From a virus, in the IMG/VR virus record IMGVR_UViG_3300027754_000298, positions 1 to 31,378 of that record: a stretch of 31,378 nt of DNA; one strand, written 5' to 3'. Within the stretch, counting starts at the first letter, position 1. Each line of letters opens with the position of its first letter. The translations under genes were made by a program, and so were the position numbers. Shown here in pieces: positions 87 through 29,451 of this stretch. The notes under the pieces are model-generated. The model did no database searches. It had not been told where the DNA came from and worked only from the letters and a program-made list of their open reading frames with translations.

Positions 87-93
87 TTTGACA
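87..93 (+). promoter_or_regulatory. TTTGACA intercistronic motif, 13 nt before a start
   Basis: TTTGACA is followed by 13 nt and then the ATG at 107. No SD is visible. It is one of ten such sites in the window (see findings). Confidence 0.5.
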
Positions 94-106
94 GCGCCCG
101 CGCAAT

Positions 107-778
107 ATGGCCCGCGCCCTCTCCCTTATCGTCAAAGACTACGCACGCGACACTGGTTGCGCATTGCGCACTGCCCAGCTCCACGCGAAGCTCGAGGATC
201 CCCGCTGGAACGAGTATCTCGCCGCTCGCGGTGCGTCTGTTCCCGGCCCTGCGGCCCCGACTGAGCAAATCCAGCCCTCGAACGAGATGGAAGCTCGCGT
301 CCGGGAGCGCGCGGAGATGCACCAGCTCGTGAAGACGGAGGTCGTCCGCTATCTGGCCGCTGGTGACATCACCATGTTCGTCACCCTGAGCCGACGCGAA
401 GAGGAACTCGATGCCGCGTGGAGAGCCGCCACCAAAGACTGGCTCGACTTCGAGAAGCGCGCCGGTCGCCTGGTCGAGCGCGACCGCACCCTCAACGACT
501 TCCGCCGCACCCTCGCCAGCATCGACGCCGTCCTCCGCAATATGCCCAACGAACTCGGTCCCCGCCTCATGCCCATGTCCCCCACCGAGGGGATCGCCGC
601 CGTGCGCGAGTGGAAAGCCACCCGCCTCGACCCTCAGATCGCCGCCGCCCGCGCCAAAATCAATTCGCCCATCACCGAAGAACACGCTGTGACGCCTCCC
701 TCTAACGAAAAAAGGGGCGCGGGGGAGGAAATCACCTCCCCCCGCGTATCCAGCACAGACCCCGTCATCGATGCCTAG
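107..778 (+). CDS. Terminase small subunit-like protein
   Basis: This 223-residue protein is the first gene and lies two genes before the large terminase, the usual place for the DNA-recognition subunit that loads the packaging motor. Residues 10-40 could form a helix-turn-helix. Residues 60-130 are charged and probably helical or coiled-coil, fitting an oligomeric ring. The C-terminal 35 residues are low-complexity and probably disordered. The ATG at 107 is chosen because TTTGACA lies exactly 13 nt upstream, the spacing seen at several other starts. The 3' end overlaps the next gene by 8 nt. Assignment rests on position and architecture rather than a diagnostic motif; it could be another DNA-packaging accessory protein. 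Confidence 0.6.
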   Translation: MARALSLIVKDYARDTGCALRTAQLHAKLEDPRWNEYLAARGASVPGPAAPTEQIQPSNEMEARVRERAEMHQLVKTEVVRYLAAGDITMFVTLSRREEELDAAWRAATKDWLDFEKRAGRLVERDRTLNDFRRTLASIDAVLRNMPNELGPRLMPMSPTEGIAAVREWKATRLDPQIAAARAKINSPITEEHAVTPPSNEKRGAGEEITSPRVSSTDPVIDA

Positions 779-1475
779 CCTCACCGGGAAAGACCTCATC
801 GACCTCCGTGGAGCGCGCACCCTGCGCGACATGCTAAAAATCGCACCCCCCGCGAAAACCACGCGCCACGAAACCGCCTTCACCCTCCCCGCGAACCTCA
901 TCCACGTCAAAAAAGCCACCATCCGCGCCCAAGACAAAAAGCGCGCCGGGATAAAGCGCCTCATCAAACCCGAAAACGCCCGCGCCGTCCTCGCCAACCT
1001 CCCAGAAGACCCCGATGACCGCACCCACTGCGTCCTGCGCGGTGACTTCATCTTCGGGGACATGCTCGCCCTGCTACTCACCGACCGCCTCGCCGCCCGC
1101 GTCCGCGTCTCCACGCTCAGCATGAGCCTCGCCAACGCCCGCACCCTCGCCTCCCTCGTCTCCACCGGTCGCGCCTCAGCCGTCAGTATGCTCATCAGCC
1201 ACTACTTCACTGAAATCGAAAAGGATGCCATGTGGCCCGAAGCTATGAAAATCATGCGTCCCCACGTCGCCGTCAGCGTCGCCCGGATACACACAAAAAT
1301 CATCACCGCCGAGATGCTCGATGGTGCCCGCTACGTCTTCGAGGGGAGCGCCAATCTCCGAAGCAGCGACACCGTCGAAAACCTCTGCATCATCAACGAC
1401 CCCGCCACCCACGACTTCCACGCCGCCTGGATGGATGAAATCGCAGCACGCCCCCCGCTAGAAATCACGCCATGA
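771..1475 (+). CDS. Phospholipase D-fold protein (single HxK motif)
   Basis: This 234-residue protein carries one PLD-superfamily signature near its C-terminus: H174-x-K176, then EGSANL at 191-196 and S199/E203/N204. This is the HxK...GSxN pattern of PLD-type nucleases and phosphatidyltransferases. Only one motif is present, so an active enzyme would have to dimerise, as Nuc-type nucleases do. The Asp usually found a few residues after HxK appears as E181. It sits between the two terminase genes, overlapping the first by 8 nt and the next gene by 4 nt (ATGA). That suggests a role in DNA packaging or end processing, which is inference. A lipid substrate is unlikely, as there is no signal peptide or membrane segment. 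Confidence 0.65.
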   Translation: MPSLTGKDLIDLRGARTLRDMLKIAPPAKTTRHETAFTLPANLIHVKKATIRAQDKKRAGIKRLIKPENARAVLANLPEDPDDRTHCVLRGDFIFGDMLALLLTDRLAARVRVSTLSMSLANARTLASLVSTGRASAVSMLISHYFTEIEKDAMWPEAMKIMRPHVAVSVARIHTKIITAEMLDGARYVFEGSANLRSSDTVENLCIINDPATHDFHAAWMDEIAARPPLEITP

Positions 1476-1756
1476 GCCAAACACCAAGAACAGATGCCGA
1501 CTACAATCTCCACGGAGGATCCGTTTGTCCCGAGTTTTGTCGCCAACTTGAAAAAGAACTGAACTCGCTTACAAAGGAGCGCGATGACTCCTACGAGGAG
1601 GTAGTCGTTCCGTTAGTAGCTGAGCGCGATGCGCTGAAAGCCAAGCTGGAAAAGATAAACTGCATCGCGAGTGCTTTATTCGCCCGCACGACAAGCAGTG
1701 AAGTCACTGGAGAGATGGCCGAAATAGGTCGTCTGTCGAGAGCGGATGGCATATGA
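1472..1756 (+). CDS. Small coiled-coil protein of unknown function
   Basis: This 94-residue protein starts with a TPRTDA sequence, has CPEFCRQLEKEL at about 19-30, and continues as a charged helix through about residue 62 that is probably a coiled coil. It overlaps the PLD gene and the large terminase by 4 nt each (ATGA at both ends), so it is co-translated with them. Its codon use is less C-rich than its neighbours (GTTAGTAGCTGAG-type stretches), suggesting later insertion as a small accessory gene. I do not recognise a function. Confidence 0.6.
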   Translation: MSQTPRTDADYNLHGGSVCPEFCRQLEKELNSLTKERDDSYEEVVVPLVAERDALKAKLEKINCIASALFARTTSSEVTGEMAEIGRLSRADGI

Positions 1757-3558
1757 CCACCCTCGCCTCACTCCTCGGAGAACGCGACGACCCCATCGCG
1801 GAACAAATGCTCAGCGTGCTCGACCGTGGTGAAATCCCTCAGCCCGTCGAGTGGGCCGAGCGCCAGTCATTTTCGCAGCGCATCAGCCCCGCCGCGCCGG
1901 GACTCTTCTCGTTTTCGCTCACGCCCTACCTCCGCGATTTCGTCGCATCGTTCGCGGATCCCACCGTGACCGATGACACCGCAGTCATGGCCTCGCAGGT
2001 CGGGAAAACCACCGCCCTCATGCTCGGGGTCGGGTGGTCCATCCTCCACCAGCCCGGTCCCACCCTCTGGGTCACGCCCACCGAAGCCTTCGCCCGCTCC
2101 TTTTCGCAAACGCGCTGGATGCCCTTCGTGAACGACAACCCCGAGCTGTCCGCCATCAAGCCCACCGACAAAGACCTCTTCAAACTCCTTGAACAGCATT
2201 ACCAAAGCTGCACCCTCAATTTCGTCGGGTCAAACAGCACCTCCCAGCTCATCTCCCGCCCCATCCAGCTATTCATCGGTGATGAAATCGAAGAATGGCA
2301 GCGTGCCACGAACGATGGCACCAGCGCCCTTCGTCAAGGAGAGCAGCGCACCAAAGCCGTCCCCGGAGCCAAGCGGATAAAATGCGGAACCCCCAAGCTC
2401 ATCGCCGGTGAGCTGTGGCAAGACTTCCTCGCAGGTGACCAGCGCCACTACCAAATCCCATGCCCCGATTGCCACGTCCCTTTCATCTTCGAGATGAAAA
2501 AAAACACGCTCCAGTGGAGTCACGAAGCCAAAGACAAAACCGGAATCTGGAATCACGCTAAAGTCCTCGAAACCGCCCGCTACCACTGCCCAGCCTGCGA
2601 TTTCCAAATCCGCGATCATCATAAGCCCGCCATGCTCCGCGCTGGAGCCATGCACCGCGCTCGCCCCGAAGCCCCCGCGCATCGCCGCTCCCGCCACCTC
2701 AACTCCTTCTATTCCCCGTGGGTCAGCTTTGGCCAGATGGCCGTCGAGTTTCTCCGCGCACAAGATTTATTCGGTCTGCAAGATTTCACCAATGGTTACC
2801 TTGGCCTCCCGTGGGAAGACCAGGTCGCCGGTGTGCACGATGACAAAGTCCTCGCCCTGCGTCGCGATGACTTCGCGTTCTACTTCCGCGACCTCGGAGG
2901 TGGCTTGTCATGCTGGGCCGCCACCGAGTGCCCGTGTGACCCCGTCATCGTCACCCTCTGCGCAGACCCCGGCCAAACCAAAACGCACTGGAGCGTCGAA
3001 GCCCGCGAAAGCGATGGCACCGCATGGCTGCTCGCCTACGGAACCGTGCTCAGCATCGAGGACTTGCTAAAAATCGTCCCCCTCCTCGAATGGCCCATCA
3101 AAGGAACCGAGCGCACCGCCCGCGTGCAAGCCGGGCTCGTGGACTCCGGTGATTTCACAAACCGCGTGTATTCCATGTGCGCCCGCAGCAAAAACGTCCT
3201 TTTCCCCAGCAAAGGATCCACCGCGCAGTTCGGCACATGGGGACAAAGCGAAACCCGCGACTACCCCGGTCTCATCCTCTACACCTACACCGATTTCAGC
3301 GCCAAGTGCGCCCTTTACCTCGAAACCATCGCCCAAAAACTCCCGCCCCGCCTATGGTGGCCATCCAACGCAGGACACGAGTTCATCAGCGGACACATGG
3401 GTCAGAAGATGGTGCAAACCCGCACCGCACGCGGATACACCAAATTCTGGAAACCCCAGCCCGAGGATCATTTCGGAGACTGCTCCAAACTCCACCGCAT
3501 CTCCTGGTGGATACTAGAACACAAACTAGGTCGCACCCCCGAGCCGCAGCCCGCCTAG
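1753..3558 (+). CDS. terL: Terminase large subunit, GpA family
   Basis: This is the ATP-driven DNA-packaging motor and nuclease, 601 residues, close to the length of lambda gpA-type proteins. The Walker A-like loop is ASQVGKT (80-86) and Walker B is LFIGDEIEEW with D177/E178. A Cys4 zinc-ribbon insert follows, with CPDC (237-240) and CPAC (279-282). The RNase H-like nuclease domain has candidate metal ligands in CADPG (D405), LVDSGD (D464/D467) and HFGDC (D576). The ATG overlaps the upstream stop as ATGA. TTTGACT begins 2 nt after its stop codon, ahead of the next gene. Confidence 0.95.
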   Translation: MTTLASLLGERDDPIAEQMLSVLDRGEIPQPVEWAERQSFSQRISPAAPGLFSFSLTPYLRDFVASFADPTVTDDTAVMASQVGKTTALMLGVGWSILHQPGPTLWVTPTEAFARSFSQTRWMPFVNDNPELSAIKPTDKDLFKLLEQHYQSCTLNFVGSNSTSQLISRPIQLFIGDEIEEWQRATNDGTSALRQGEQRTKAVPGAKRIKCGTPKLIAGELWQDFLAGDQRHYQIPCPDCHVPFIFEMKKNTLQWSHEAKDKTGIWNHAKVLETARYHCPACDFQIRDHHKPAMLRAGAMHRARPEAPAHRRSRHLNSFYSPWVSFGQMAVEFLRAQDLFGLQDFTNGYLGLPWEDQVAGVHDDKVLALRRDDFAFYFRDLGGGLSCWAATECPCDPVIVTLCADPGQTKTHWSVEARESDGTAWLLAYGTVLSIEDLLKIVPLLEWPIKGTERTARVQAGLVDSGDFTNRVYSMCARSKNVLFPSKGSTAQFGTWGQSETRDYPGLILYTYTDFSAKCALYLETIAQKLPPRLWWPSNAGHEFISGHMGQKMVQTRTARGYTKFWKPQPEDHFGDCSKLHRISWWILEHKLGRTPEPQPA

Positions 3559-3560
3559 CC

Positions 3561-3567
3561 TTTGACT
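3561..3567 (+). promoter_or_regulatory. TTTGACT intercistronic motif, 13 nt before a start
   Basis: TTTGACT lies 2 nt after the terL stop and exactly 13 nt before the ATG at 3581. There is only a weak purine tract (GGTGG) in the spacer. Confidence 0.5.
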
Positions 3568-3580
3568 CTCCCGGTGGTGC

Positions 3581-3919
3581 ATGGCCGCACCCGAGTCCCG
3601 CAACTACATCCGCGCTTTCCTTCGTCGCACTCACACGCTCGCCCAGCTTCAAGCGCACAGCCTTGCCATTGGGAACAGCGTCATCACCGGGGATTGCAGC
3701 GAGGTCGAGGTGCTGCTCACCAATGCGGGATTCGAGGGAGGAAATGCGGGAGGTGTAGTGCGCGGTGTGGACCGTTTCGACATCGGGAACATCTGCGAAG
3801 AACTCATCTCCGAAATGGTGCAAGCCGGCGTGACCTCGTGGACTGCCGCGCTAAGCTCCACCGACTTCCGCCGCGCCACCGTCACGCACTCCCGCGCTGC
3901 CGTCTATGGCACATTCTGA
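3581..3919 (+). CDS. Small protein at head-tail connector position
   Basis: This 112-residue protein has a basic N-terminus (residues 1-20), a Gly/Asn-rich turn near 52-58 and predicted helices. It lies between large terminase and portal, where lambda carries gpW, a head-tail joining protein of 68 residues. I see no clear sequence signature of gpW, so the role is inferred from position only. The start is supported by the 13-nt spacing from TTTGACT. Confidence 0.6.
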   Translation: MAAPESRNYIRAFLRRTHTLAQLQAHSLAIGNSVITGDCSEVEVLLTNAGFEGGNAGGVVRGVDRFDIGNICEELISEMVQAGVTSWTAALSSTDFRRATVTHSRAAVYGTF

Positions 3920-4145
3920 TGCGATGTGCTGGTGTGGTCGAATCAAAAAGACCACCGCACAAATCAGAAACGGTGTCGTCTTTTCCCGCCTCACTTGCGA
4001 GCGGGGACACTTTGACAGTCTCCCTCCGAAATGCCGTCCAATTCAAATGACCTTCCCACCAAATCAAAACGCGGAGGTGCCCGCACAGGTGCAGGTCGCA
4101 AATCTCTCGGTTCACAAATCGCGCAGGGAGTTGTCGCTGGAATAG
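3906..4145 (+). CDS. Possible small CxC/CxxxH zinc protein overlapping the portal start
   Basis: This 79-codon frame overlaps the end of the preceding gene by 14 nt and the portal start by 115 nt. Its first 45 residues look protein-like, with C8, C10, C31, H35 and C43 placed like metal ligands. The remainder is read across the portal start in another frame and is low-complexity. The TTTGACA motif of the portal lies inside it. It may be a real overlapping gene, a decayed gene whose C-terminus now runs into the portal, or chance. Confidence 0.3.
   Translation: MAHSDAMCWCGRIKKTTAQIRNGVVFSRLTCERGHFDSLPPKCRPIQMTFPPNQNAEVPAQVQVANLSVHKSRRELSLE
4011..4017 (+). promoter_or_regulatory. TTTGACA intercistronic motif, 13 nt before portal start
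   Basis: TTTGACA is followed by 13 nt, mostly pyrimidines with no SD, and then the portal ATG at 4031. Confidence 0.5.
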
Positions 4146-5566
4146 CAGCCATCGAAAACCGCAGCTACGAAGCCGCAGAGCGCTACCAGCAAAACCGCCA
4201 CCCCGTCTATTCGCCCACCTCCCCGCGTCTCGACTTCCAAGCCTACGACCGCACCGAGCTGGCCCGCCTCGCGTGGTGGGCCTACAACAACAGCCCCGAA
4301 ACCCGTCGCGGAATTGATGCAACCTGCCGCTACACCGTGGGAGCCGGACTCATCCCGCAATCGCTGGTAAAAGACACCACCATCCGCGCCCAATACGAAA
4401 CCACCTTCCGTGACCGCTACACCACAAACGCCTTCGCCTTCGACCTAGCAGCCCGCGACAATTTCCTCACCGCACAAACCAGCATCCTCAAGCATACCAT
4501 GCTCGCGGGTGATTTCTTCGGTCAGTTCGTCCTCGATACCAACGGTGGAGCCATGATGCGCTTCATCCCCGGTGAAAACGTCGCATCGCCGGGAGAAACC
4601 GATGCCGCGTGGTTCGATGGAGCCAAGATCAACAGCAACGGTCGCACCATCGCGTGGAGAATCTACGAAGCAGTCGGTGGAAACAAAGCCACCGAAGTCC
4701 CCGCCGAGTCCCTGCTCCATTTCGTGGATGACCACCGCAAAGGATACGTCCGTGGCCCTTCTCACCTCGCCCCCGCGCTCAACGACATCCGCGACACGAT
4801 GGAGATGATCGGTTTCACGAAGCAAGCGTTCAAAGCCGCCGCGCAGCATCCTTTCGCCATCTTCTCGCCCGATGCCGGAAAAATCGGTCTCGGTGCCGCG
4901 CTCACCGCAGCCAACGCCAGCGGAAACACGCAGGCCATGATCATCGACCAGCTCGACAGCAGCGTCGGTCGCATGGAGATGAAGCCCACGGATCGCATCG
5001 AGCACTACAAAAACGAGCACCCCGGAGAAACCTTCGAGCCGTTCATGGACTTCTTGCAGCGTCGCATCGCCTGGGCACTCGGTCCCGCCCCCGAGATTAT
5101 CTTCACCGGAAAAAACACGGGAGGTGTGGACTTCAGAGCCAAGCTCGCAGACGCGCAAATCTTCTTCGATTCCCGCCGCAACTGGCTGGTCGAAAAATTC
5201 TGCCGCCCATTCTGGACATTCGCCATCTGGCACGAAATCGAAGCCGGTCGCCTCCCATACACCGAGGACTGGTATCGCGTCGGATGGCAAACCCCGCCCG
5301 ATGTCACCGTGGATTTCGGTCGCGACTTCAAAACCCTCTGCACCCTCGCCAGCGAAGGTCACATCAGCAGCGACACCGTAGGTCGCCTCGTCGGGATAGA
5401 CCCCGATGCGGAAGATGACCTCATCATCAACCGAGCGATCGCCCGCCGCAAAAAAGTAGAACTCGCAGCCAAAGCCACAGGAGTCTCGATCACCTTCGGG
5501 GAAGTCTTCGCCGGTGACGGAATGCCTGCCCAAGTGCCCACAGCAGCGCCAGCGGTGCAACGATAA
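4031..5566 (+). CDS. Portal protein, lambda gpB-like family
   Basis: This 511-residue protein fits the lambda-family portal, the dodecameric ring at the capsid vertex through which DNA passes. A basic, Gly-rich N-terminus (GARTGAGRKS) precedes a region typical of the family, with LARLAWWAYNNSPETRRGID near residues 75-95 and GAGLIPQS shortly after. Family-like aromatic and acidic segments continue through residue 440 and the C-terminus is Ala/Pro-rich. The ATG at 4031 is preferred because TTTGACA lies 13 nt upstream. It is placed between terminase and capsid protease as expected. A long open frame on the opposite strand at 4445-5560 is a shadow of this gene. Confidence 0.9.
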   Translation: MPSNSNDLPTKSKRGGARTGAGRKSLGSQIAQGVVAGIAAIENRSYEAAERYQQNRHPVYSPTSPRLDFQAYDRTELARLAWWAYNNSPETRRGIDATCRYTVGAGLIPQSLVKDTTIRAQYETTFRDRYTTNAFAFDLAARDNFLTAQTSILKHTMLAGDFFGQFVLDTNGGAMMRFIPGENVASPGETDAAWFDGAKINSNGRTIAWRIYEAVGGNKATEVPAESLLHFVDDHRKGYVRGPSHLAPALNDIRDTMEMIGFTKQAFKAAAQHPFAIFSPDAGKIGLGAALTAANASGNTQAMIIDQLDSSVGRMEMKPTDRIEHYKNEHPGETFEPFMDFLQRRIAWALGPAPEIIFTGKNTGGVDFRAKLADAQIFFDSRRNWLVEKFCRPFWTFAIWHEIEAGRLPYTEDWYRVGWQTPPDVTVDFGRDFKTLCTLASEGHISSDTVGRLVGIDPDAEDDLIINRAIARRKKVELAAKATGVSITFGEVFAGDGMPAQVPTAAPAVQR

Positions 5567-5625
5567 CCCAGAACAAAACCCGCCCGATGAATCTCATACC
5601 GGTGAGCATGAGCGCGAATGGCTGA

Positions 5626-5632
5626 TTTGACA
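5626..5632 (+). promoter_or_regulatory. TTTGACA intercistronic motif before protease gene
   Basis: TTTGACA abuts the TGA of a 12-codon mini-frame (5587-5625) and lies 17 nt before the protease ATG at 5650. Confidence 0.45.
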
Positions 5633-5649
5633 CGCACGAAGTTTGCAAC

Positions 5650-6552
5650 ATGACCGAGCTTTATCTCTACGACACCATTGGAGCCTTTGGGATTTCCGCG
5701 AACGCATTCATCGAGCAGATTCAAGCCGTCCCCGCTGACTCCGCAATCACCGTCGCAATCAATAGCGATGGTGGAAGCGTGACCGATGGCAACGCAATCA
5801 TCGCCGCCCTTCAGCGTCACCCCGCAGGATATACCGCCCGCGTCGATGGTCTCGCCGCTTCGATGGCCGCAGTCATCGCCTTCACCGCCCCGAGCTGCGT
5901 CGCCAGCGATGGTGCGATGTTCATGGTGCACAACGTCCAGGGTGCCGCAAGCGGAGATGCCGATGAAATTCGCGCCTACGCTGACATCATCCAGAAATTT
6001 AACGACTCCATCGTGGGTCGTATCGCCGCGAAGACCGGAAAGAGCGTCGAGGAAATCGCTGCGATGCTCGATGAGGAAACATGGCTCAGCGCACAGGAAG
6101 CGCTCGACATGGGTCTCATCGCCAGCATCACCGCCGCACTCGCCGCAGCCGCGCAGCTCAAAGAATTTCCAATAGTAGCCAAGGCCCAGCTCGGAAACAT
6201 CGTCGCCGAACTCAAGAGCCTGCGAGAAATCGTCGCGGTGAAGGAAAACGAAATCCTCGCACTGCGTAGCTCGACCACGGAGCTGACATCAAAATACGAA
6301 GCCGAATCCGCGAAGACATCCGCTGCGCAGAGCGAGGTGACTAAATGGAAAGAACTGCACGCGCAGCTCAAAGCCTCGCTCGGAATCGCACCCGCCGCAG
6401 TGGTCCCGCCCATCGCAGCCGCTTCCAAATCTCCCGCTGAAATCGCAGCGCACCTCCAGACCATCACCGACCCCGTGATGCGCGCATCCTACTTCCGAGA
6501 AAACCGTGACGCGCTGCTCGCAGCGAACAACGCCGAGCGCGCCCGGAAGTAA
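5650..6552 (+). CDS. Capsid maturation protease (ClpP-like) fused to a coiled-coil scaffold
   Basis: This 300-residue protein has an N-terminal ClpP/S49-like serine protease domain (about 1-160). It shows INSDGGSV at 38-44, the nucleophile in GLAAS71MA, and H94 in MVHN; the acidic triad member is probably D103-D118. Residues 185-240 form a long charged coiled coil, like the scaffold domains fused to capsid proteases in other phages (lambda gpC/Nu3 is the known precedent). It would shape the procapsid and then be degraded as it cleaves. It lies directly before the major capsid gene. Confidence 0.88.
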   Translation: MTELYLYDTIGAFGISANAFIEQIQAVPADSAITVAINSDGGSVTDGNAIIAALQRHPAGYTARVDGLAASMAAVIAFTAPSCVASDGAMFMVHNVQGAASGDADEIRAYADIIQKFNDSIVGRIAAKTGKSVEEIAAMLDEETWLSAQEALDMGLIASITAALAAAAQLKEFPIVAKAQLGNIVAELKSLREIVAVKENEILALRSSTTELTSKYEAESAKTSAAQSEVTKWKELHAQLKASLGIAPAAVVPPIAAASKSPAEIAAHLQTITDPVMRASYFRENRDALLAANNAERARK

Positions 6553-6581
6553 TCATCCAACCAATCAACAACTAAAACAAA

Positions 6582-7466
6582 ATGGCAACATACACCAATC
6601 TCGACAACGAGATTTTTAGCAACGCAGCGCTGGAAACGTTTCTCAAAACGCTCCTGCCGTTCAACGCATTCAGCACCAACTTCTCACCGGACCCCGTTCA
6701 AAAGGGAGCCACTGTGCTCGTCCCGCTGATTGCATCACTCACCGCCACGACTTTCGGTGGTAGCTACGCGCTCTGCGGTGGCACACAGAGCGTCGTCACG
6801 ATCAGCATCAACAAACACAAGCACGTCCCAATCGGTCAAAACGACCTCGACGCCGCGAACAGCTCCCGCGCCTCGCTGGAGAGTTTTGCAGCGCAACAGG
6901 GCCGCGCGCTCGCACTCGCCGTGCTCCAGGATGTGTTCACGCTCTGCACGACTGCAAACTTCTCGCTGGCCACAGCGGTCGCAAGCACCGCGCTCGATGT
7001 GCCGCAGCTCCGCGCCACGCGCCTCGCGCTTAACCAGAACGATGTGGCCGCAGACCCGCGTTCGCTCATCCTCGACTGCGTCCCGATGGATGCACTGCTC
7101 AGCGTCACAAACTTCGTGCAAGCGCAGATGTTCCGCGACCAGGGTGTGCTCGCCGATGGTAAAGTCGGTCGTGCGCTGGGATTCGGAATGTATGAGCTGA
7201 ACAACCTCTTCCCGAGCACTGGCTCGGTCATGGGTTTCGCCGCTCACGCATCCGCCATCGCCATCGCGATGCGCTACCTAGCACCGCAGGCCGGCAACAC
7301 CTACAGCGATGCCCGCGCAGTCACGGATCCCGGAACCGGAATCACCATCGGTCTCCGCGACCACTTCGATAACAACACAGGGACTCGCTACCTCAACCTC
7401 GAAGCGAACTACGGATACAGCGTCGGTCTCACCACCGCAGCGCGCATCCTCAAGCGCACGGACTAA
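6582..7466 (+). CDS. Major capsid protein (HK97 fold expected)
   Basis: This 294-residue protein follows the protease-scaffold gene, as capsid proteins do. It has a polar N-terminal arm, an Ala-rich helix around residues 98-130 (a spine-helix candidate) and a beta-rich C-terminus. No maturation cleavage site is obvious. The ATG is preceded by an A-rich leader (CAACTAAAACAAA) and no SD; the gene at 10842 has a near-identical leader. Three hairpins follow the stop codon, so a high level of this transcript relative to downstream genes is plausible. Confidence 0.85.
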   Translation: MATYTNLDNEIFSNAALETFLKTLLPFNAFSTNFSPDPVQKGATVLVPLIASLTATTFGGSYALCGGTQSVVTISINKHKHVPIGQNDLDAANSSRASLESFAAQQGRALALAVLQDVFTLCTTANFSLATAVASTALDVPQLRATRLALNQNDVAADPRSLILDCVPMDALLSVTNFVQAQMFRDQGVLADGKVGRALGFGMYELNNLFPSTGSVMGFAAHASAIAIAMRYLAPQAGNTYSDARAVTDPGTGITIGLRDHFDNNTGTRYLNLEANYGYSVGLTTAARILKRTD

Positions 7467-7488
7467 TCGCTAGTCAATTCACGAACAT

Positions 7489-7521
7489 CCCCGCGCGAGG
7501 TTTGGACGCGCGGGGATTTCT
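7489..7521 (+). terminator. Intrinsic terminator-like hairpin after major capsid gene
   Basis: The arms CCCCGCGCG (7489-7497) and CGCGCGGGG (7507-7515) form a perfect 9-bp GC stem with a 9-nt loop, followed by ATTTCTT. It starts 22 nt after the capsid stop codon. The U tract is imperfect, so its strength is uncertain. Confidence 0.6.
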
Positions 7522-7546
7522 TCACCCAAAACTGACCGAAAGGTCA

Positions 7547-7590
7547 CAAGGGCCGTCTCATCCAAACCATGAGCGGCCCTTGTCTTTTTT
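7547..7590 (+). terminator. Strong intrinsic terminator ending 4 nt before a start codon
   Basis: CAAGGGCCG (7547-7555) pairs with CGGCCCTTG (7574-7582). After a single T bulge, CTCAT (7557-7561) pairs with ATGAG (7569-7573). The loop is 7 nt and the run TCTTTTTT follows directly. The next gene begins at 7595, leaving no room for a promoter, so downstream expression would require read-through or antitermination. Confidence 0.75.
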
Positions 7591-7594
7591 ACTT

Positions 7595-9814
7595 ATGAAA
7601 ACCACACCAAAAATCTCCCTCTGCCTCATCGTCGGGAACGTCGAGGAATACATCGACCGCTGCCTCACTTCCTTCGCGCCAATCGCGGATGAAATCTGCG
7701 TCGTCCGAGCCATTGGCAACGCCACCCCTGACCGAACTCTCGACATCGCCCGCGAGAAATTCGGTGCCATTGTCTCGGAATACAAAAACGCAGCCGGTCA
7801 CGAAGACTGGCCGCACGTGGATTCATTCGCTGCTGCCCGCAACGCCTCATTCGCGCTCGCCACCGGGGATTACTGCTTCTGGTGCGATACCGATGACATC
7901 CTCGAAAGCGGTGCGGAACTCATCCGCCAGCACGCAGAGCGCGGAGGATATGCCGCGTATCTTTACCCCTACAAGATACTCGGGAAAGGGGTGAACATCC
8001 TGCGCGAGCGTCTCATCTCTCGCGGAAGCGGAAAATGGATTTACCCCGTGCACGAGTGTTTTGATTTTGCCATCCAGCCCATCCAGAGCGTGCAGGATGA
8101 CCGCGTCATCATCACCCACCTCCCGCACCTCGACAAAAGCGGAAGCAACGAGCGAAACCTCCGCATCCTCAAAAGCATCCCAGAGGAGCAATACACCGCT
8201 GGCCTGCTGTATCATATGCAAGCCGAACTCGCCGCAGCCGGAGACCACGAGGGAAGTATCGCAGCCGCGCAGCGCGCCCTTGCCATGCCCGAACTCGCCA
8301 AGCCCGAGCGATTCGAGCTTTTCCTCAACCTCGCCAACATGACGCAGGATCCATCGCAGAAAGAAACCTGCTATCTGCAAGCCTACGCCACCGACCCTCG
8401 CCGCGCTGAGCCGCTCGCATTTCTCGCGTGCAACTGCATGGACTACGGTCGCAACGAGGACGCGCTCGCCTTCGCCCGCCAGATGCGCGCGACACGCCAG
8501 CCGCAGAAATACGAGTGGAACGAACGCCCCGAAATCTACTCATGGCTCGGTGATGAAATCTACGGTCAAGCCCTGCGCGTGAACGGAAAGAAGAACGTCG
8601 CCGAGATCGTCCGCAAAGAAACCATGCAAAAGGCCGGTGGCCCGCGCATCGCCCTGCTCCACGCCACCCGTGGTCGCCCGCAACAGGCCGCCATAGCCCG
8701 TAAAACGTGGGTCCATCTCGCAGAGCAGCCCGACCGCATCGAGCACATTTTCGTGTGCGATGAGGATGACGCAGCCAGTTTCGCGCTCCAGCGGATGCAC
8801 CACCTCATCATCCCTCCGGGTGGTGGATGCGTCGCAGCATGGAACCACGCCGCATTCAGCACCGAAGCCCCCGTGCTCGTGCAGCTCAGCGATGACTGGT
8901 TGCCCGTGCCGATGTGGGACAAGCTCATCCTCGAACGCCTCGGTGACATCACGAAGCCTGCGGTGCTCGCGATTTCCGATGGCTCGCGCAAGGACGAACT
9001 GCTGTGCATGGCCATCTGCACCCGCGCCTATTTTGAGCAGGATTATTTTTTGTTCCACCCCGCATTCACCGGGGTCTATTCCGATAACTATTTCACCGAA
9101 CTCGCCTACAAACGAGGACAAGTCATCGAAGCCCGCGACATCGTTTTCACACACCAGCACCCCGCGTTCATCAAAGACATCGCCTTCGATGAAACCTACC
9201 AAAAGCAGAACGCGCCCGAGCGCTACGCCTACGGGAGCGCGGTCTATCAGCGACTCAGCCAGGGGAACGACTGGAGCACCGTGCCTGGATTTACAAACTA
9301 CTGGCTGCTCTACCAAAGCATCGCAGCCAACGTGAAGGATGGAGACACCATCGTCGAAGTCGGGGTCTGGATGGGAAGGTCCATCATCTTCCTCGCGCAA
9401 GAACTCCAACGCCTCGGAAAAACCAAGTGCAAGCTCTACGCGGTGGACACATTCGTCGGTGAGAAAAACCAGCCCGCCCACACCGCCACCATCGAGGAGC
9501 ACGGAGGAAGCCTGCGCGATGTCTTCGTGGAAAACATCACCCGCTGCGGAGTCGCTGACATGATCACCATCATCGAAAACGACAGCGCAGAAGCCGCAGC
9601 GTGCTTCGCCCCGAAAAGCGTGGATTTCTGCTTTGTGGATGCCGCGCACGACTACGAAAGCGTGAAGCGCGATGTGGCCGCATGGCTCCCCAAAGTGCGA
9701 GGAACCATCGCAGGCCACGATGCCCAGCACGAGCCGGTGCTGCGCGCCGTGCGCGAACTCATCCCCGGCGCCATCCGCATCGGCCCATGCTGGATTCAAG
9801 GAAACATCCAATGA
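7595..9814 (+). CDS. Multidomain glycosyltransferase-TPR-glycosyltransferase-methyltransferase
   Basis: This 739-residue protein has four apparent modules. Residues 1-190 form a GT-A family 2 glycosyltransferase resembling the WaaE/KdtX group (SLCLIVGNVEEYI at 8-20, DTDD at 98-101). Residues 200-310 look like TPR-type helical repeats. Residues 350-530 form a second GT-A-like domain (CDEDDA at 388-393, LSDDW at 431-435). Residues 570-739 form a class I SAM methyltransferase of the Methyltransf_24 type (VEVGVWMGRS at 587-596, YAVDTF at 615-620, FVDAAHDYESVKRD at 680-693). It would transfer sugars and perhaps methylate them; its position after the capsid gene suggests virion glycosylation, which is inference. 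The ATG at 7595 is the first after the terminator; upstream in-frame codons run through the hairpins. Confidence 0.85.
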   Translation: MKTTPKISLCLIVGNVEEYIDRCLTSFAPIADEICVVRAIGNATPDRTLDIAREKFGAIVSEYKNAAGHEDWPHVDSFAAARNASFALATGDYCFWCDTDDILESGAELIRQHAERGGYAAYLYPYKILGKGVNILRERLISRGSGKWIYPVHECFDFAIQPIQSVQDDRVIITHLPHLDKSGSNERNLRILKSIPEEQYTAGLLYHMQAELAAAGDHEGSIAAAQRALAMPELAKPERFELFLNLANMTQDPSQKETCYLQAYATDPRRAEPLAFLACNCMDYGRNEDALAFARQMRATRQPQKYEWNERPEIYSWLGDEIYGQALRVNGKKNVAEIVRKETMQKAGGPRIALLHATRGRPQQAAIARKTWVHLAEQPDRIEHIFVCDEDDAASFALQRMHHLIIPPGGGCVAAWNHAAFSTEAPVLVQLSDDWLPVPMWDKLILERLGDITKPAVLAISDGSRKDELLCMAICTRAYFEQDYFLFHPAFTGVYSDNYFTELAYKRGQVIEARDIVFTHQHPAFIKDIAFDETYQKQNAPERYAYGSAVYQRLSQGNDWSTVPGFTNYWLLYQSIAANVKDGDTIVEVGVWMGRSIIFLAQELQRLGKTKCKLYAVDTFVGEKNQPAHTATIEEHGGSLRDVFVENITRCGVADMITIIENDSAEAAACFAPKSVDFCFVDAAHDYESVKRDVAAWLPKVRGTIAGHDAQHEPVLRAVRELIPGAIRIGPCWIQGNIQ

Positions 9815-10407
9815 CAACGCCCATCCTCAGTATCCTCACGCCCGCAGTGCCTTCGCGCCTCGACCAGCTCGCCACGCTGTGCGAAGAAATTGACCATCAA
9901 ATCGGGAGTCAGCCGGTCGAGCACCTTGTGCTGCTCGATAACAAAAAGCGCACCGTGGGTGAAAAGCGGGATGCACTTCTGCGCATGGCTCATGGTCAAT
10001 ACGTCGCCTTCGTGGATGATGATGATGACATCTCCCGCGATTACGTCTCGCGTATCCTCGCCGCAGCGGAGAGTCGCCCGGATGTCATAACATTTGACCA
10101 GCACGCCACGGTGAACGATCAAAGCGCCCGCATCAACTTCAAGCTCGGAAACCCCAACGAGCCATTCTACGGAACCGCATCAGCCATCGCATCAACGCCC
10201 ATTATTAAGCGCAATGCGTGGCACATCTGCGCATGGTCGCGTCGTCTCGCCATCATGTCGCATTTTCCCGCGAGCAACTACGGGGAAGACTGGAGTTTCG
10301 CCGCCCCGCTCTGCGCGCTGCCCAATCTCCGCGAAGTCCACATCCCCGAGGTGCTGCACTTTTACAATCACAGCACAGCCACCACCGAAGCCCCGCCACC
10401 GCAATGA
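9811..10407 (+). CDS. Glycosyltransferase family 2 protein
   Basis: This 198-residue GT-A protein starts with ILSILTPAVPSR, the usual first strand. It has VFLD-like sequence YVAFVDDDDDIS with D69-D73 as the metal/nucleotide-sugar site, and an acceptor-side GEDWSF motif near residue 155, as in family 2 enzymes. It overlaps the upstream multidomain enzyme by ATGA and the downstream gene by 4 nt. It probably acts in the same sugar pathway. Its short length implies a catalytic domain only, with no membrane anchor. Confidence 0.85.
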   Translation: MTTPILSILTPAVPSRLDQLATLCEEIDHQIGSQPVEHLVLLDNKKRTVGEKRDALLRMAHGQYVAFVDDDDDISRDYVSRILAAAESRPDVITFDQHATVNDQSARINFKLGNPNEPFYGTASAIASTPIIKRNAWHICAWSRRLAIMSHFPASNYGEDWSFAAPLCALPNLREVHIPEVLHFYNHSTATTEAPPPQ

Positions 10408-10829
10408 CCGCTCAAGAAGAACGCGCACTTTTTAAGGAATGCTGCCTCACGGGAAAAAAGCCGGTCATCGAGCGCCCGTGGCTCATTTCCAATCTCTGCC
10501 GGGGATGCAATCAGCCCGTCACCGCTGCGAATATCGCCATCTGGCACACCTACTGGAAAGCGATGTGGGCCGCGTGCCATGTCGAGTGCCGCACCGAGGG
10601 GATGAAAGCCGAAGCCTACGAGTGCCAGCTCATCGACAAGTCGTGCTCGGATTGCCGTCATTTCGTGCGCGGGAAAGAACTCATAGAGCTGAAAGGATTC
10701 GGAACCGGAACCTTCATCGGTCACTGCGCGCACCACAACCGCACCACCTTCGCACGAGCCTGCCACAGCTACCCGCAAAACGCAGAATGCTTTTCGCATC
10801 GTCGCCAACAAATTACCGAAAACCCATAA
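10404..10829 (+). CDS. Cys-rich, probably zinc-binding protein of the sugar cassette
   Basis: This 141-residue protein has two Cys/His clusters. C32/C35 with C58/H59/C62 could form one zinc ribbon, and C81/C84 with C108/H110/C120/C129 a second. It overlaps the glycosyltransferase stop as ATGA, which fixes the start at 10404. I do not recognise the family. The context suggests a partner of the sugar enzymes or a structural zinc protein of the virion. Confidence 0.65.
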   Translation: MTAQEERALFKECCLTGKKPVIERPWLISNLCRGCNQPVTAANIAIWHTYWKAMWAACHVECRTEGMKAEAYECQLIDKSCSDCRHFVRGKELIELKGFGTGTFIGHCAHHNRTTFARACHSYPQNAECFSHRRQQITENP

Positions 10830-10841
10830 CTAAAAAACAAA

Positions 10842-11248: not shown

Positions 11249-11260
11249 AGCGCGGTAATT

Positions 11261-11267: not shown

Positions 11268-11323
11268 CCCCGCATCGCTCATGCGTCCACGTCTAAACCA
11301 TTTCACTTTCTGAGGGGGAATAG

Positions 11324-18145: not shown

Positions 18146-18147
18146 CC

Positions 18148-18170: not shown

Positions 18171-19274
18171 ATGGAGCTTTTCGTCAATCGTCCGCGTCGC
18201 AAAATTCAGACAGCTCGCAGCTATCAAGCCGCGACTGAATCGCTCACGGTTTCGCGCAATGAAACGATCTATCTCAAGGTCGGATTCATGGCCGACAACA
18301 CGACCACCCTCGATGACCCGAACACCGCCCCAGCCATCACGAATGTCCGTCTGACCTGCAAAAACTCCACCTCGGATCAGGGTTACGATGAAAACCCGCT
18401 CGTGGATTACATGAGTTTCGCCCGCACCTTGGTCGGTAGCGAATATTTCATGATCGGGAGCGTCCCTTTCACCAGCGGAGGACTCGATAAGCTGCTCGGG
18501 ATTGATGACTCTTCCGCCTACGAAGTGAACGCCGTGCAGTGTGTCGCGGATTCGTCCGGGTCGCTGCGCGCAAAGTCTTTCCGGGTGCCAACGGGAGCCG
18601 CAACGTGGGATCGCGTCTGGTTTCAAGTCGGGGGAACAGGAACCGCACCCACCGCCGCCACAGGGGAAACCCTCAAGATGGCCGTTATTTCAGCAAACGC
18701 CACCGCGACACAGGTCGCCACCTCGCTCGTCACGCTCTACTCGGGAAGCGTGGTTTTCACCGTCACGAGCGTCTCGGATACCGCAACTTTCACCGACCTC
18801 TCCCAAGGTGCTCGCGGGAATCCTGCCGCGCTGGATTCGACTTTCGTCATAAGCACCGCCACCGCTGGAAAAACCGCATTTTCCGTGAGCGATGTGGGCT
18901 CGGTGGACCTCAACGCATGGCTGAGCTACTACGAAGGAGGAGTGCTCCAAGTGCTCCCGATGTTCACCATCACCGTCGAAAACAACGGGATTCGCCCTGG
19001 CACACCGAGCGCGATCTACGGGGGAGGTTCGCGCACGCAGACCACCACCATCGGAAACGGTGACAGCACGGTCGCAGTCACTTTCGCCACCGCATTCCCG
19101 CACGCCACCTACAAAGTCGCGAGCTGCGAAGTGGTGAATACCACCGATGGCTCTCCGCTTGGGATTTCCGTGCAGACCATCACGGCCCGCTCCACCACGG
19201 GTTTCACCGTCGCGCTGAGCTGCGCCACTGACTCTGCAAACTACACCCTCGACACCATCGCTCTCATCTCATGA
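18171..19274 (+). CDS. Tail protein with beta-sandwich modules, possible fibre base
   Basis: This 367-residue protein is Thr/Ser/Val-rich and mostly beta, with repetitive TATFTDL-type strands in the middle and an Ig-like pattern near the C-terminus. It is followed, with a 4-nt overlap (ATGA), by the fibre gene, so it probably anchors or forms the base of the fibre. The exact fold is not visible. Confidence 0.55.
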   Translation: MELFVNRPRRKIQTARSYQAATESLTVSRNETIYLKVGFMADNTTTLDDPNTAPAITNVRLTCKNSTSDQGYDENPLVDYMSFARTLVGSEYFMIGSVPFTSGGLDKLLGIDDSSAYEVNAVQCVADSSGSLRAKSFRVPTGAATWDRVWFQVGGTGTAPTAATGETLKMAVISANATATQVATSLVTLYSGSVVFTVTSVSDTATFTDLSQGARGNPAALDSTFVISTATAGKTAFSVSDVGSVDLNAWLSYYEGGVLQVLPMFTITVENNGIRPGTPSAIYGGGSRTQTTTIGNGDSTVAVTFATAFPHATYKVASCEVVNTTDGSPLGISVQTITARSTTGFTVALSCATDSANYTLDTIALIS

Positions 19275-20782
19275 TCCGCCCGATTCTCAACGCCCGCCTC
19301 GATGGAGCCGCCACACTTCCCAGCGGAGCCAGCTTTACCGCAGCCAGCGGGAGCACCGTTGACCTTTCCGCCGCCACCGTCACGCTTCCCGGCGCAAATA
19401 GCATCGCCCGCGTGACAGCCGCTAATCAAGCCGCCCGCTACGCGCTCACCACTGCCAGCGTGCAGAACGGTGACTACGTTTACCAGACCGACACTACAAC
19501 GCTCTACGAGGTCACGGACCAAACCGCACTCAGCGGTGCGAGCGGATACACCGCCCTCGCCACGGTAACCGTCTCGCAAATCACGGGTCTCGGAACAGGA
19601 GTCGCCGCCGCCCTTGCGATCAACATAGGGAGCGCCGGTGCTTTCATCGCTTTCAACGGAGCGCTCGGCACGCCAAGCAGCGGAACGCTTACAAGCTGCA
19701 CAGGACTACCAATCAGCACGGGCGTTTCCGGCCTCGGCACTGGCGTTGCCACATGGCTCGCAACTCCGTCATCGGCAAATCTCGCGGCAACGATCACAGG
19801 CGGAACAGGAAGTGGCGCGCTGGTGTTTGGCACATCGCCAACGCTAGTAACTCCGGCGCTCGGAACGCCAAGCAGCGCCACGCTTACAAGCTGCACCGGA
19901 CTACCAATCAGCACGGGCGTTTCCGGCCTCGGCACTGGCGTTGCCACCTTCCTCGCAACTCCATCCGGAGCAAACCTAGCCACCGCGCTCACATCCGCGA
20001 TCCCTATCACAAAGGGCGGAACTGGCGGAACCACCGCTTACACAGCGATCACAGGGCTAGGTAGCGTTTCGCCCCTTGGTGCCCTTTCGCTAAAAGACGA
20101 TTTTTTCACGGGGACTAATGTGGCTGGATCGATAGGCGAACTTGGTTGGACGGTGTATAACGTAGCGGGCTCTGGCTCCGGCGCCTACGAAGTGAACAGC
20201 TTTTTAGGTGCTTTCAAGATTACGACAGGCAGCACGTCTGGAAACTGCACACAACTGTATTTCCCGAATAGTAGCGCTGTGAACGTCAGCGGCGTGAACG
20301 CGGCGGTGTTTGAAATGTGGTGGCGCGTGAAAATCGACACCGTAACAAATGTCGCTGCGTATCTTGGCTTCTCTTGGAACCAACCCGTTGTAACGAAAGT
20401 GGATAACGCAGGAAGTGGAGCAAATGACAAAGGCTATTGGTTTCGTTTTGATACCAGCCTCAATGTTGCCGATGCCCAATGGACATTAGTGACTTGCGAC
20501 GACGCAACGGGAACCACGGGTCACGTTCTGTCCGCTGCGTTCACTGGCTCAATCTCGGCGGGAGTCTATTACACGCTCAAGATGAGGGGCGACGGGACGG
20601 GCGCAATATACGGCACGATGTATGATAGCACGGGCACCATTGTTGGTAGCGAAATCAGCGTGGCGAACACACGGTCAATCAGTAACGGGATGTTCTTAAT
20701 TCCGCAGATAACTACAAAGACCTCCGCTACTCGCGCACTGAGTATTGATTTTTTTGGCCTAGCAATCAACCCATCAAGATAA
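19271..20782 (+). CDS. Tail fibre with internal repeats, mosaic
   Basis: This 503-residue protein has a phage-typical N-terminal part (about 1-115), then two copies of a repeat with core GTPSSxTLTSCTGLPISTG (about residues 135-160 and 200-225). A C-terminal beta-rich domain (275-503) resembles a lectin-like or jelly-roll head and would bind the receptor. From about 19600 to the end the Gly codon GGC, rare elsewhere in the late genes, becomes common, and base composition is less C-rich. That is a sign of recombination. The N-terminal attachment end stays native, as expected for host-range swapping. Confidence 0.75.
   Translation: MIRPILNARLDGAATLPSGASFTAASGSTVDLSAATVTLPGANSIARVTAANQAARYALTTASVQNGDYVYQTDTTTLYEVTDQTALSGASGYTALATVTVSQITGLGTGVAAALAINIGSAGAFIAFNGALGTPSSGTLTSCTGLPISTGVSGLGTGVATWLATPSSANLAATITGGTGSGALVFGTSPTLVTPALGTPSSATLTSCTGLPISTGVSGLGTGVATFLATPSGANLATALTSAIPITKGGTGGTTAYTAITGLGSVSPLGALSLKDDFFTGTNVAGSIGELGWTVYNVAGSGSGAYEVNSFLGAFKITTGSTSGNCTQLYFPNSSAVNVSGVNAAVFEMWWRVKIDTVTNVAAYLGFSWNQPVVTKVDNAGSGANDKGYWFRFDTSLNVADAQWTLVTCDDATGTTGHVLSAAFTGSISAGVYYTLKMRGDGTGAIYGTMYDSTGTIVGSEISVANTRSISNGMFLIPQITTKTSATRALSIDFFGLAINPSR
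19661..19752 (+). repeat. Fibre-gene direct repeat, copy A
   Basis: A 92-bp unit with 4 differences from copy B. The last 50 bp are identical. It encodes the GLPISTGVSGLGTGVAT segment. Confidence 0.85.
19856..19947 (+). repeat. Fibre-gene direct repeat, copy B
   Basis: Same frame as copy A and 195 bp away, so unequal exchange would remove or add 65 codons without a frameshift. Confidence 0.85.
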
Positions 20783-21526: not shown

Positions 21527-21533
21527 TTTGACA
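21527..21533 (+). promoter_or_regulatory. TTTGACA intercistronic motif, 14 nt before a start
   Basis: It lies 1 nt after the TAA of the previous gene and 14 nt before the ATG at 21548. Confidence 0.45.
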
Positions 21534-27131: not shown

Positions 27132-27371
27132 TCCAAAGCTATCCACCAAGCGTCGTGCGATGGAACCACGACTGCCTCGCTCGGTCGGGAGCGTTGCACT
27201 TCGGGGGAGTCGTTCACCGCGCCTGATGAGAGGATGTCGCGCTTTGAACTGACTGCGTTTTTTGTGCTGAGCCGCCAAGGATGGAAGGCTCGCGGGGGTC
27301 GTATTTTTTGCCCGCGCTGTGCGCAGAATCTCGGGTGCGAGGTTCGCAAAACCACGGAGGGTCACGCATGA
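27126..27371 (+). CDS. Early zinc-ribbon-like protein
   Basis: This 81-residue protein has C62-x-x-C65 and C71 near its C-terminus, with C11 and C24 possibly completing the site. It has a basic C-terminal tail. Joined by ATGA at both ends. Function not recognised. Confidence 0.6.
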   Translation: MISKAIHQASCDGTTTASLGRERCTSGESFTAPDERMSRFELTAFFVLSRQGWKARGGRIFCPRCAQNLGCEVRKTTEGHA

Positions 27372-27913
27372 GCGAGCACGAACATCACGCCACGGAGGAG
27401 ATGGTGGTTGAAAAGCATTTCGATTCATCCACCACGCCGGATATGGCTGAGGAGATTGACAAGCCCGAGGAGATTCTCGCGGAGAAGCTCGGGATCTCGA
27501 AAATGGCCGCGCGCCGGGTGCTGGAATGGCACGCAGGGGAAGTCGCAAATGAGAGCGAGAAAGCGCGACGGCATCAAATCGCAATCATTCTTTCGGAGCT
27601 GGTGCCTTCGCGCCCTGGTAATCTCGAAGCCATCGTGCTCGGTCTGATGTTTGCCTCGGGGACTGCGAATTTCGCGCAGCTCGGGTCGCAATCGGAAGCT
27701 GCGAAGCGGATGGCCCGCTCGGTGAAATGCCCGCACTGCGGGAAGGCTCACGAGCAAACGGTGACGCGCGCGCTCATCAGTCACTACACGCTGAGGTGGG
27801 CCGACAAGCTGCACCTCACGAATTACCGTTTCCGCAGAGCGGAGGAGACGCGGGAGAATTGCAGGAAAGCCCGCATCGCCATCATCGCGCCACCGAAAGT
27901 TTCACACCCCTAG
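27368..27913 (+). CDS. Early protein with HTH-like and CxxC parts, last in the ATGA chain
   Basis: This 181-residue protein has an acidic N-terminus, an HTH-like LGISKMAARRVLEWH segment (about 41-55), an Ala/Gly-rich helix (83-105) and C121-x-x-C124 followed by a basic helix to the end. It may bind DNA or act in replication. Its SD is GGAGGG. A 23-nt gap separates its stop from the next gene, where the chain ends. Confidence 0.6.
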   Translation: MSEHEHHATEEMVVEKHFDSSTTPDMAEEIDKPEEILAEKLGISKMAARRVLEWHAGEVANESEKARRHQIAIILSELVPSRPGNLEAIVLGLMFASGTANFAQLGSQSEAAKRMARSVKCPHCGKAHEQTVTRALISHYTLRWADKLHLTNYRFRRAEETRENCRKARIAIIAPPKVSHP

Positions 27914-27936: not shown

Positions 27937-28542
27937 ATGAGCAAAAAACTTCTCACTGACATCGCTGCGAGTCTTCAAATGTTTGAAGCGCGCAGTCTCA
28001 ATCTCCCGCCTGATATAACGCTGGAGCAATTTTCAGATATTGGCCGTTTTCTGAAACAATGCTCGGATGCGTCTCAGCTTTGGCTTCAAGACTGGAAGGC
28101 CCAAGGGGAGCGCATTCTTGGCTCGGATGCGGTTTCGCTGACTTGTCAGCAGCTCGAACTGGAAATCGGAAGTCTGCCCGCGCTGGTGGCTCCCGAGGAC
28201 CGCATCAAATCGCTTTCGCCTGAGCATCACTTTGTGGCTGCCCGGATGTGTGAGGATGCTTTCGATGCGAAGAATTGGCTGGAGACTGCGGTCGAGGCCA
28301 ACCTCGATGCGCGCCAGCTCGCGCTGAGCATTAAAGCGGGAGAGGTTCGCCGCGCCTCTCCGCAAGCTGCGGGTGCGCGCATGGGTGTCGCGACTCCGCA
28401 CACTGTGCTGCTTGCTTGGCAACATTTCCGCAGTGCTGTGGATCCCGCGAAATACAATGGAGATGATGCTGATGAGGTGCGTGGTGTTTTGATGCCACTC
28501 ACCGCTGAAATTAAAGCGTTCTGCACGCTGCTTAAGGACTAA
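27937..28542 (+). CDS. Protein before primase, replication-associated candidate
   Basis: This 201-residue protein is helical, with SLSPEHHFVAARMCE (about 92-106) followed by WLETAVEANLDARQLALSI. The latter resembles a helical module seen next to replication or partition functions in phages and plasmids. The start has an A-rich leader without SD, unlike the preceding chain. It lies 3 nt before the primase gene. Role tentative. Confidence 0.55.
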   Translation: MSKKLLTDIAASLQMFEARSLNLPPDITLEQFSDIGRFLKQCSDASQLWLQDWKAQGERILGSDAVSLTCQQLELEIGSLPALVAPEDRIKSLSPEHHFVAARMCEDAFDAKNWLETAVEANLDARQLALSIKAGEVRRASPQAAGARMGVATPHTVLLAWQHFRSAVDPAKYNGDDADEVRGVLMPLTAEIKAFCTLLKD

Positions 28543-28545
28543 GCC

Positions 28546-29442
28546 ATGAGCATCGCTGACTGCCGCAGTAAATTACCCATGCCTGCGCTTTGGCGTATGC
28601 TTTGGCCCGGTGTGGAAGGTCCGCACGAGGGGAAGCGTGCGCAGATGGTGGTGGCTGCTTGGAGGGGGGAGAATACGCCCTCGGTCAATGTGACGATGAA
28701 TGGGGATGGATGGCTCTTTTTTGACCACGGTCAAAAGGCCGGTGGTGATGAGTTGAAGCTGGTGGAGCTGGCCCACGGGTGCGAGCGGAAGAAGGCAATG
28801 GAGATTTACCACACGATGGCTGGGGTGGAGTGGAAGACTGCCGCCGCGCCTTCGGGGGATAGGAACCCGAACGCGAATATTGTCGCGTGCTATGATTATC
28901 TCGATGCGGACGGAAAGCTCAAGCATCAGACTGTGCGCTTTGAACCTGGTCTGCGCCCGGGTGAGCGGAAGTCGTTTCTCCAGCGCAGGCCCGCGCAGCC
29001 GGGGATGACTCAAGCGACTCGCTCGGGTCGCAAGGAAGCGAAGAAGGATAACCGCGATGGTCGCTGGTGGCTGTGGACTCTTGAAGGGATTGAGCCGGTG
29101 CTTTTCAATCTGCCAGCCATCATGTCCACATCGGGGGAGATATGGCTCGTGGAGGGTGAGAAGGATGCGCTCGCGCTGGGGAAATTCGGAGTGGTCGTTA
29201 CGACTGCACCGATGGGTGCAAAGAATTGGAGGGAGTCTTACACGAAAGCGCTCGCGGGTCGGGATGTGGTGCTTTGCGGTGACTCGGATTCTGCGGGGGT
29301 CGCGCATCTGCTGACCGTGGGTCGCGCACTGCGCACAGCGGGGTGCTCGGTGAGCACGATGAAGTGGGAAGCGGTGGTCGGGGAAAGCGCGACTACGGAG
29401 AAATGGGATGCTGCAAAATTTTTAGAGCAAAAAGAGAACTGA
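28546..29442 (+). CDS. DNA primase-like protein with TOPRIM domain, zinc ligands replaced
   Basis: This 298-residue protein has an N-terminal CHC2-like segment with AAWRGENTPSVNV at 37-49 and WLFFDHGQKAGGD at 56-68. The order matches primase zinc-binding domains, but the Cys ligands are absent. The TOPRIM core follows with E203 in VEGEKDAL and D246/D248 in CGDSDSAG. It would make primers, or act as a TOPRIM protein supporting the next gene. It ends 45 nt before the helicase. Confidence 0.8.
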   Translation: MSIADCRSKLPMPALWRMLWPGVEGPHEGKRAQMVVAAWRGENTPSVNVTMNGDGWLFFDHGQKAGGDELKLVELAHGCERKKAMEIYHTMAGVEWKTAAAPSGDRNPNANIVACYDYLDADGKLKHQTVRFEPGLRPGERKSFLQRRPAQPGMTQATRSGRKEAKKDNRDGRWWLWTLEGIEPVLFNLPAIMSTSGEIWLVEGEKDALALGKFGVVVTTAPMGAKNWRESYTKALAGRDVVLCGDSDSAGVAHLLTVGRALRTAGCSVSTMKWEAVVGESATTEKWDAAKFLEQKEN

Positions 29443-29444
29443 CC

Positions 29445-29451
29445 TTTGACT
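29445..29451 (+). promoter_or_regulatory. TTTGACT motif before helicase gene, spaced by a hairpin
   Basis: It lies 2 nt after the primase stop and 36 nt before ATG 29488. The hairpin at 29453-29470 lies between; removing its 18 nt leaves 18 nt, within the range at other sites. Confidence 0.4.

Follow-up and report, generated by a model that had tools for sequence, protein, structure and literature searches.

Does the heptamer TTTGACW, which recurs a short distance ahead of start codons in a viral genome fragment, act as a signal for its late genes, and is it read in the DNA or in the mRNA? The fragment, here called the window, is IMG/VR record IMGVR_UViG_3300027754_000298, positions 1–31,378, taken on one strand. 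The late module (107–24578, + strand) encodes the terminase subunits, portal, ClpP-like protease, capsid and tape measure, and is followed from about 25 kb by an early module with a GC skew opposite to that of the late module; the skew flips at about 25000 although the gene direction is unchanged. Shine-Dalgarno sequences are found at some early genes and not at the late genes. The protein encoded at 7502–9814 (770 aa) combines two regions resembling glycosyltransferases with a C-terminal region resembling a DNA methyltransferase, and relatives of it are present in fragment G003 and in phages of a clade with 48% GC.

Of the named phages, Akkermansia phage Moulinsart is nearest to the window; still closer to it are IMG/VR contigs and one contig of a Spartobacteria metagenome-assembled genome (MAG). 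The host group is therefore the Verrucomicrobiota. Scans with single proteins of the window gave few relatives. The 48% GC clade is separate from the clade of the window, with a terminase that is about 31% identical.

Boxes in the window

TTTGACW is present in 13 copies against 6.8 expected, and at least 13 were obtained in 5 of 100 shuffles, so that the abundance by itself is weak evidence. The strand bias is 12:1 in favour of the + strand, which agrees with the count of the sequence-only reading, and the single copy on the − strand is located at 15129–15135. Eight of the 12 copies on the + strand have an ATG 13–17 nt downstream, where 1.05 would be expected (P=1.2e-6).

The sequence-only reading placed ten of these copies ahead of start codons, in the late genes, and in five cases at a gap of exactly 13 nt. 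The gene sites at 87, 3561, 4011, 5626, 14339, 18148 and 21527 are well supported and the one at 12411 is probable (Table 1), whereas the copy at 11261 precedes a minimal frame and the copy at 29445 (gap 36), like the one at 24889, has a spacing that does not fit; the last two are located in the early half. The gap does reflect a positional constraint, with a range of 13–17 nt and not exactly 13, and the heptamer does mark a real element, but its core is TTGACA. Most late genes that open a new unit are boxed, the capsid gene being an exception, and late genes that start at most 6 nt from the previous stop codon, or overlap it, have no box. At 14353 a frame opens that is longer than the one starting with GTG at 14359. 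The start of the terminase small subunit is likewise boxed in contig L093, as is the start homologous to 3581 in L016/L017 (40% identity).

Table 1. Copies of the box in the window, and the two early genes that are discussed with it.
Feature	Position	Strand	Remarks
Box TTTGACA	87–93	+	Gap 13 to ATG 107, terminase small subunit; present in L007/L008
Box TTTGACT	3561–3567	+	Gap 13 to ATG 3581, 112-aa gene after terminase large subunit
Box TTTGACA	4011–4017	+	Gap 13 to ATG 4031, portal
Box TTTGACA	5626–5632	+	Gap 17 to ATG 5650, ClpP-like head protease
Box-like copy, unproven	11261–11267	+	ATG 11281, 13 nt on, opens only 10 codons
Box TTTGACA, probable	12411–12417	+	Gap 19 to ATG 12437 (134 aa); outside the 13–17 of relatives
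Box TTTGACT	14339–14345	+	Gap 13 to GTG 14359 (280 aa)
Box-like copy, unproven	15045–15051	+	Inside gene 14359–15201; ATG 13 nt on opens 40 codons
Box TTTGACA	18148–18154	+	Gap 16 to ATG 18171 (367 aa)
Box TTTGACA	21527–21533	+	Gap 14 to ATG 21548 (154 aa)
Family C, HTH DNA-binding protein with CPHC..H insertion, candidate box reader	27368–27913	+	Profile match, alignment
Family B	27937–28542	+	Directly downstream of family C in window and prophages; BLAST to prophage family, 27% identity

Core, spacing and conservation in relatives

TTGACA ranks first of all hexamers by its excess of ATG at 13–17 nt, in each of the two phage clades separately, and its one-mismatch variants show little or no excess in either clade. 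Summed over the motif-bearing phages, ATG follows TTGACA at gaps of 12 to 18 nt in 1, 20, 25, 16, 13, 13 and 1 cases, and 87 of the 154 copies have it at 13–17 nt. For TTTGACA the corresponding numbers are 24 of 33 in the wider clade of the window and 26 of 30 in the 48% GC clade, and the ATG-distance profile after TTTGACA is flat in Clostridia prophages, Moulinsart and the Verrucomicrobia phage P8625. Starts of orthologous genes have TTGACA unaltered down to protein identities of about 60%, while their spacers and Shine-Dalgarno sequences diverge; some 17 orthologues of the protease in the 48% GC clade have the hexamer without a change. No second conserved element was found upstream or in the spacer in the clade of the window, where the spacer between box and start is GC-rich.

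The capsid gene and the adjoining small head gene have A-rich leaders in place of the box, several boxes are stacked upstream of the capsid gene, and most phages with stacked boxes have a terminator hairpin after it. In the 48% GC clade, and also in L015, a box stands ahead of the scaffold's own start, which is internal to the protease gene and in frame with it. A second arrangement is seen downstream of the capsid gene in G150, G153, G154, G157 and L055, where TTGACA is followed after 11–15 nt by a conserved GAAATCCTA and the gene starts 23–30 nt after the box; this gene is of glycosyltransferase/methyltransferase type and in most cases preceded by a terminator hairpin.

Verrucomicrobiota prophages carry the element as well: an ATG follows at 13–17 nt in 63 of their 131 sense copies of TTGACA (P=5e-38), compared to 3 of 21 on the other strand. 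Five of the 16 copies of TTGACA-N13-17-ATG in genome G083 (3.76 Mb) are located in the prophage region, against none of nine with the control spacing N20-24, and in G133 eight of 67 copies fall within 24 kb, all on one strand. Outside the prophages N13-17 is no commoner than N20-24 in host genomes; genome-wide totals in other Verrucomicrobiota genomes are near or below the control spacing, and the family of MAG G001, a genome that includes a contig of a related phage, agrees with this. A host-wide non-Shine-Dalgarno start signal was rejected, as the hosts' own genes show no such usage, and TTCTCAC, considered as a host motif in G001, is noise. A gene at 7418 of L198 (G001) is boxed at 14 nt, and its protein, starting MSYLLFLDESGHD, is DUF3800-like by eye. 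A family of small proteins (106–136 aa), by eye of Vsr/DUF559-type nuclease appearance, is present in the 48% GC clade and in the prophage regions of G251 (12396), G074 (21540), G083 (15124) and G152 (28538).

TTGACA 13–17 nt before the start codon is thus a phage-specific late-gene start box, its sequence, spacing, strand, conservation and absence from host genes all being established. Related phages are strongly enriched for it at this position and depleted of it on the other strand, and together with host genomes and controls they uphold the functional start-site element proposed by the sequence-only reading; for the choice between translation start, RNA processing and a non-canonical promoter, and hence between RNA and DNA level, the evidence is mixed.

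Possible late promoter or translation-start element

The core is exactly the −35 hexamer of a σ70 promoter, and a minor class of copies, with ATG 28–31 nt after TTGACA, resembles ordinary near-leaderless promoters. No −10 region follows the box: over 82 sites the best match to TATAAT averages 2.16 at spacers of 15–19, compared to 2.6–2.8 in control windows, and of only two promoter-like matches in positions 1–20000 of the window none is at a box. The motif is not a σ70 promoter, and the sequence-only reading was right to notice that no −10 box follows. Degenerate −35 sequences are not tolerated, unlike in σ70 promoters. With a −10 at the right distance rarer than in control windows, P values from 1e-6 to 5e-38 and only the exact hexamer in use, ordinary σ70 promoters or chance are very improbable as an explanation, and for the 13–17 nt class already refuted.

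The best explanation, to which we give a probability of about 0.45, is a single-box late promoter that acts on DNA, is read by family C and gives mRNAs with short leaders. The family C protein would bind TTGACA DNA and recruit the host RNA polymerase, and transcription would begin in the short interval that separates the box from the start codon, yielding mRNAs with a short leader or none. Late units that do not overlap would each start on their own, and transcription would accumulate towards the capsid gene. We infer the reader, the DNA level and the position of the transcription start from several lines of evidence: the phage-specificity and strict sequence of the box, the co-occurrence of family C and its likeness to sigma factors, the avoidance of antisense copies, the terminators before boxes, the stacking upstream of the capsid gene and the hairpins at prophage ATGs. 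The missing −10 and, in the clade of the window, the GC-rich spacer count against it.

A profile built without the window, after one extension, matches its family C gene with E=6.9e-6. By BLAST the family is found in seven of eight prophage regions, all but G083, and the profile reaches G083, L021, L093, G004 (the same record as L068) and the 48% GC phages. L091, which is boxed and outside the building set, is matched at 1.3e-22, and L107 (0.008) gives a generic weak HTH match. Family C is thus present in motif-bearing phages whose early genes are readable; the boxed G003, with no match, is a 19.7-kb fragment containing mostly late genes, and Moulinsart and P8625, outgroup phages without the motif, gave nothing significant. 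The likeness to sigma factors is weak (Pfam Sigma70_r4 0.011; PHROG sigma factors 7e-4 and 0.003). The best fold matches in the PDB are for the most part sigma chains, none of them at E≤0.001, a KorA-type HTH is also matched, and the AlphaFold model of the window protein has low confidence. That the two occur together in a single group of phages hints that family C reads the box but does not prove it, as both could belong to one clade with no interaction between them. The same co-occurrence would be seen if the HTH protein were a repressor that keeps the late genes silent until induction, as a protein bound at the box could block initiation. An operator would be unusual if it consisted of one hexamer that is not palindromic and kept a fixed distance from starts, internal ones included, and we regard a repressor as quite improbable.

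Inside genes of the 48% GC clade two antisense copies of TTGACA were seen against 24–25 expected after codon shuffling, a depletion that is absent in Moulinsart, P8625 and Clostridia prophages and that is expected if TTGACA can start transcription. In the coding sequence of MAG G001 TTGACA is under-represented on both strands (sense 9 versus 15.5, antisense 7 versus 24), a deficit that G162, G129 and the sense strand of G144 do not share; as G001 also avoids the hexamer, the avoidance may only reflect an ordinary −35. Terminator hairpins end at or just before the box at G152 11630, G151 12701, G004 3280, G220 38306 and G251 31467. In the prophages, hairpin stems of at least 5 bp surround the ATG in 41% of cases versus 17% in shuffles, and these would shut off read-through RNA, whereas RNA with its start beyond the 5' arm would escape them.

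The chief difficulty of the late promoter is that a −35-type hexamer without a −10 is located so near the start codon. In the standard geometry of sigma region 4, transcription would start within the gene, about 30 nt after the box. Shine-Dalgarno cores are present between box and ATG in 17 of 38 sites of the 48% GC clade, versus 4.4 expected, and in 12 of the 38 the core begins 0–2 nt after the box and would be missing from transcripts with a start further downstream, which argues against a promoter. It is a doubtful extension that an exact TTGACA and a sigma-like phage HTH protein make promoter and start codon one signal, without a −10, in phages throughout the phylum. That transcription then starts at or next to the AUG, as a code of a kind not described before, is equally tentative.

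The main rival is close, and we hold it to be a real possibility: on a polycistronic late mRNA, UUGACA would position the 30S subunit (or a phage factor attached to the subunit) 14–20 nt upstream of the start codon and thereby pick out the late translation starts, either by itself or together with a Shine-Dalgarno sequence. The hard 5-nt spacing window, the Shine-Dalgarno cores of the 48% GC clade, the use at the internal start of the scaffold and the absent −10 are all consistent with such an mRNA element. It agrees poorly with the strong antisense depletion, the lack of wobble or one-mismatch tolerance, the terminators that precede the box at several sites, the lack of use by hosts and the missing box at the capsid gene, probably the most expressed one. 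The 16S rRNA of G001 ends GGATCACCTCCTTTCT, which is ordinary and also speaks against the mRNA element; a Shine-Dalgarno identity by pairing to the 16S 3' tail was rejected as there is no complementarity. Nor is the motif significantly more unpaired than shuffled flanks (t=1.2). The exact complement of TTTGACA, TGTCAAA, is found at about position 1935, in the h16 region, of the Spartobacteria 16S on L213, but pairing to it is probably coincidence as it is on the wrong side of the 30S subunit. A perfectly complementary phage small RNA was rejected, TGTCAA being almost absent from late-strand sequence.

Alternatively, the box could be a strict RNA-processing site, where a phage or host endoribonuclease cuts just upstream of the ribosomal binding site and creates monocistronic 5' ends. 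The strictness of the hexamer is in line with this, as is its position, in many cases, at the upstream stop codon or immediately behind it, with the box's own TGA as the stop in 13 cases. Processing needs no tight distance of 13–17 nt to the start codon, antisense copies are avoided too, and no family match was noticed that suggests a ribonuclease, making this explanation improbable.

Comparison with known systems

Literature searches found no prior description of the box. It provides a rule for where late genes start in phages of the Verrucomicrobiota, a host phylum with little phage genetics, helps annotation by pointing to genuine starts and to nested genes like the scaffold, and offers a one-gene hypothesis for the control of late genes. 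If the DNA reading is true, a promoter would be made from a −35-type hexamer alone with the start codon at the place of the −10; if the RNA reading is true, the box would be an undescribed upstream translation-start element.

The late promoters of phage T4 depend on gp55 and have a TATAAATA box with no −35/−10 pair, and some T4 late genes (lysozyme) have hairpins that silence read-through RNA. Like these promoters the box is one short near-invariant sequence before many late genes with no −35/−10 pair, but it is TTGACA and not TATAAATA, has a fixed distance of 13–17 nt to the start codon and is found in a genome of only about 31 kb. Relatives of gp55, gp33 and gp45 were not seen by Pfam or PHROGs, the sigma-like matches of family C being weak.

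In phage P8625 (L013) TTGACA is also located at a fixed distance before several late genes, but the arrangement differs, being TTGACA-N17-TATnnn-N7-ATG with a gap of 30, a GTATCC/GGATAC repeat and no excess at 13–17 nt. The sites are at 5412, 10736 and 15558, with the GTATCC..GGATAC-type repeat perfect, or nearly so, at the first two, and they are putative regulated near-leaderless σ70 promoters.

With Shine-Dalgarno and non-Shine-Dalgarno ribosomal binding sites the box shares a narrow fixed distance to the start, but it is located further upstream, is strict, belongs to late phage genes only and coexists with Shine-Dalgarno sequences in one clade. The epsilon sequence of T7 gene 10 is a short translational enhancer just upstream of the Shine-Dalgarno sequence of a phage late gene, and the box is similarly short and upstream, but unlike epsilon it serves many genes with an invariant sequence and spacing.
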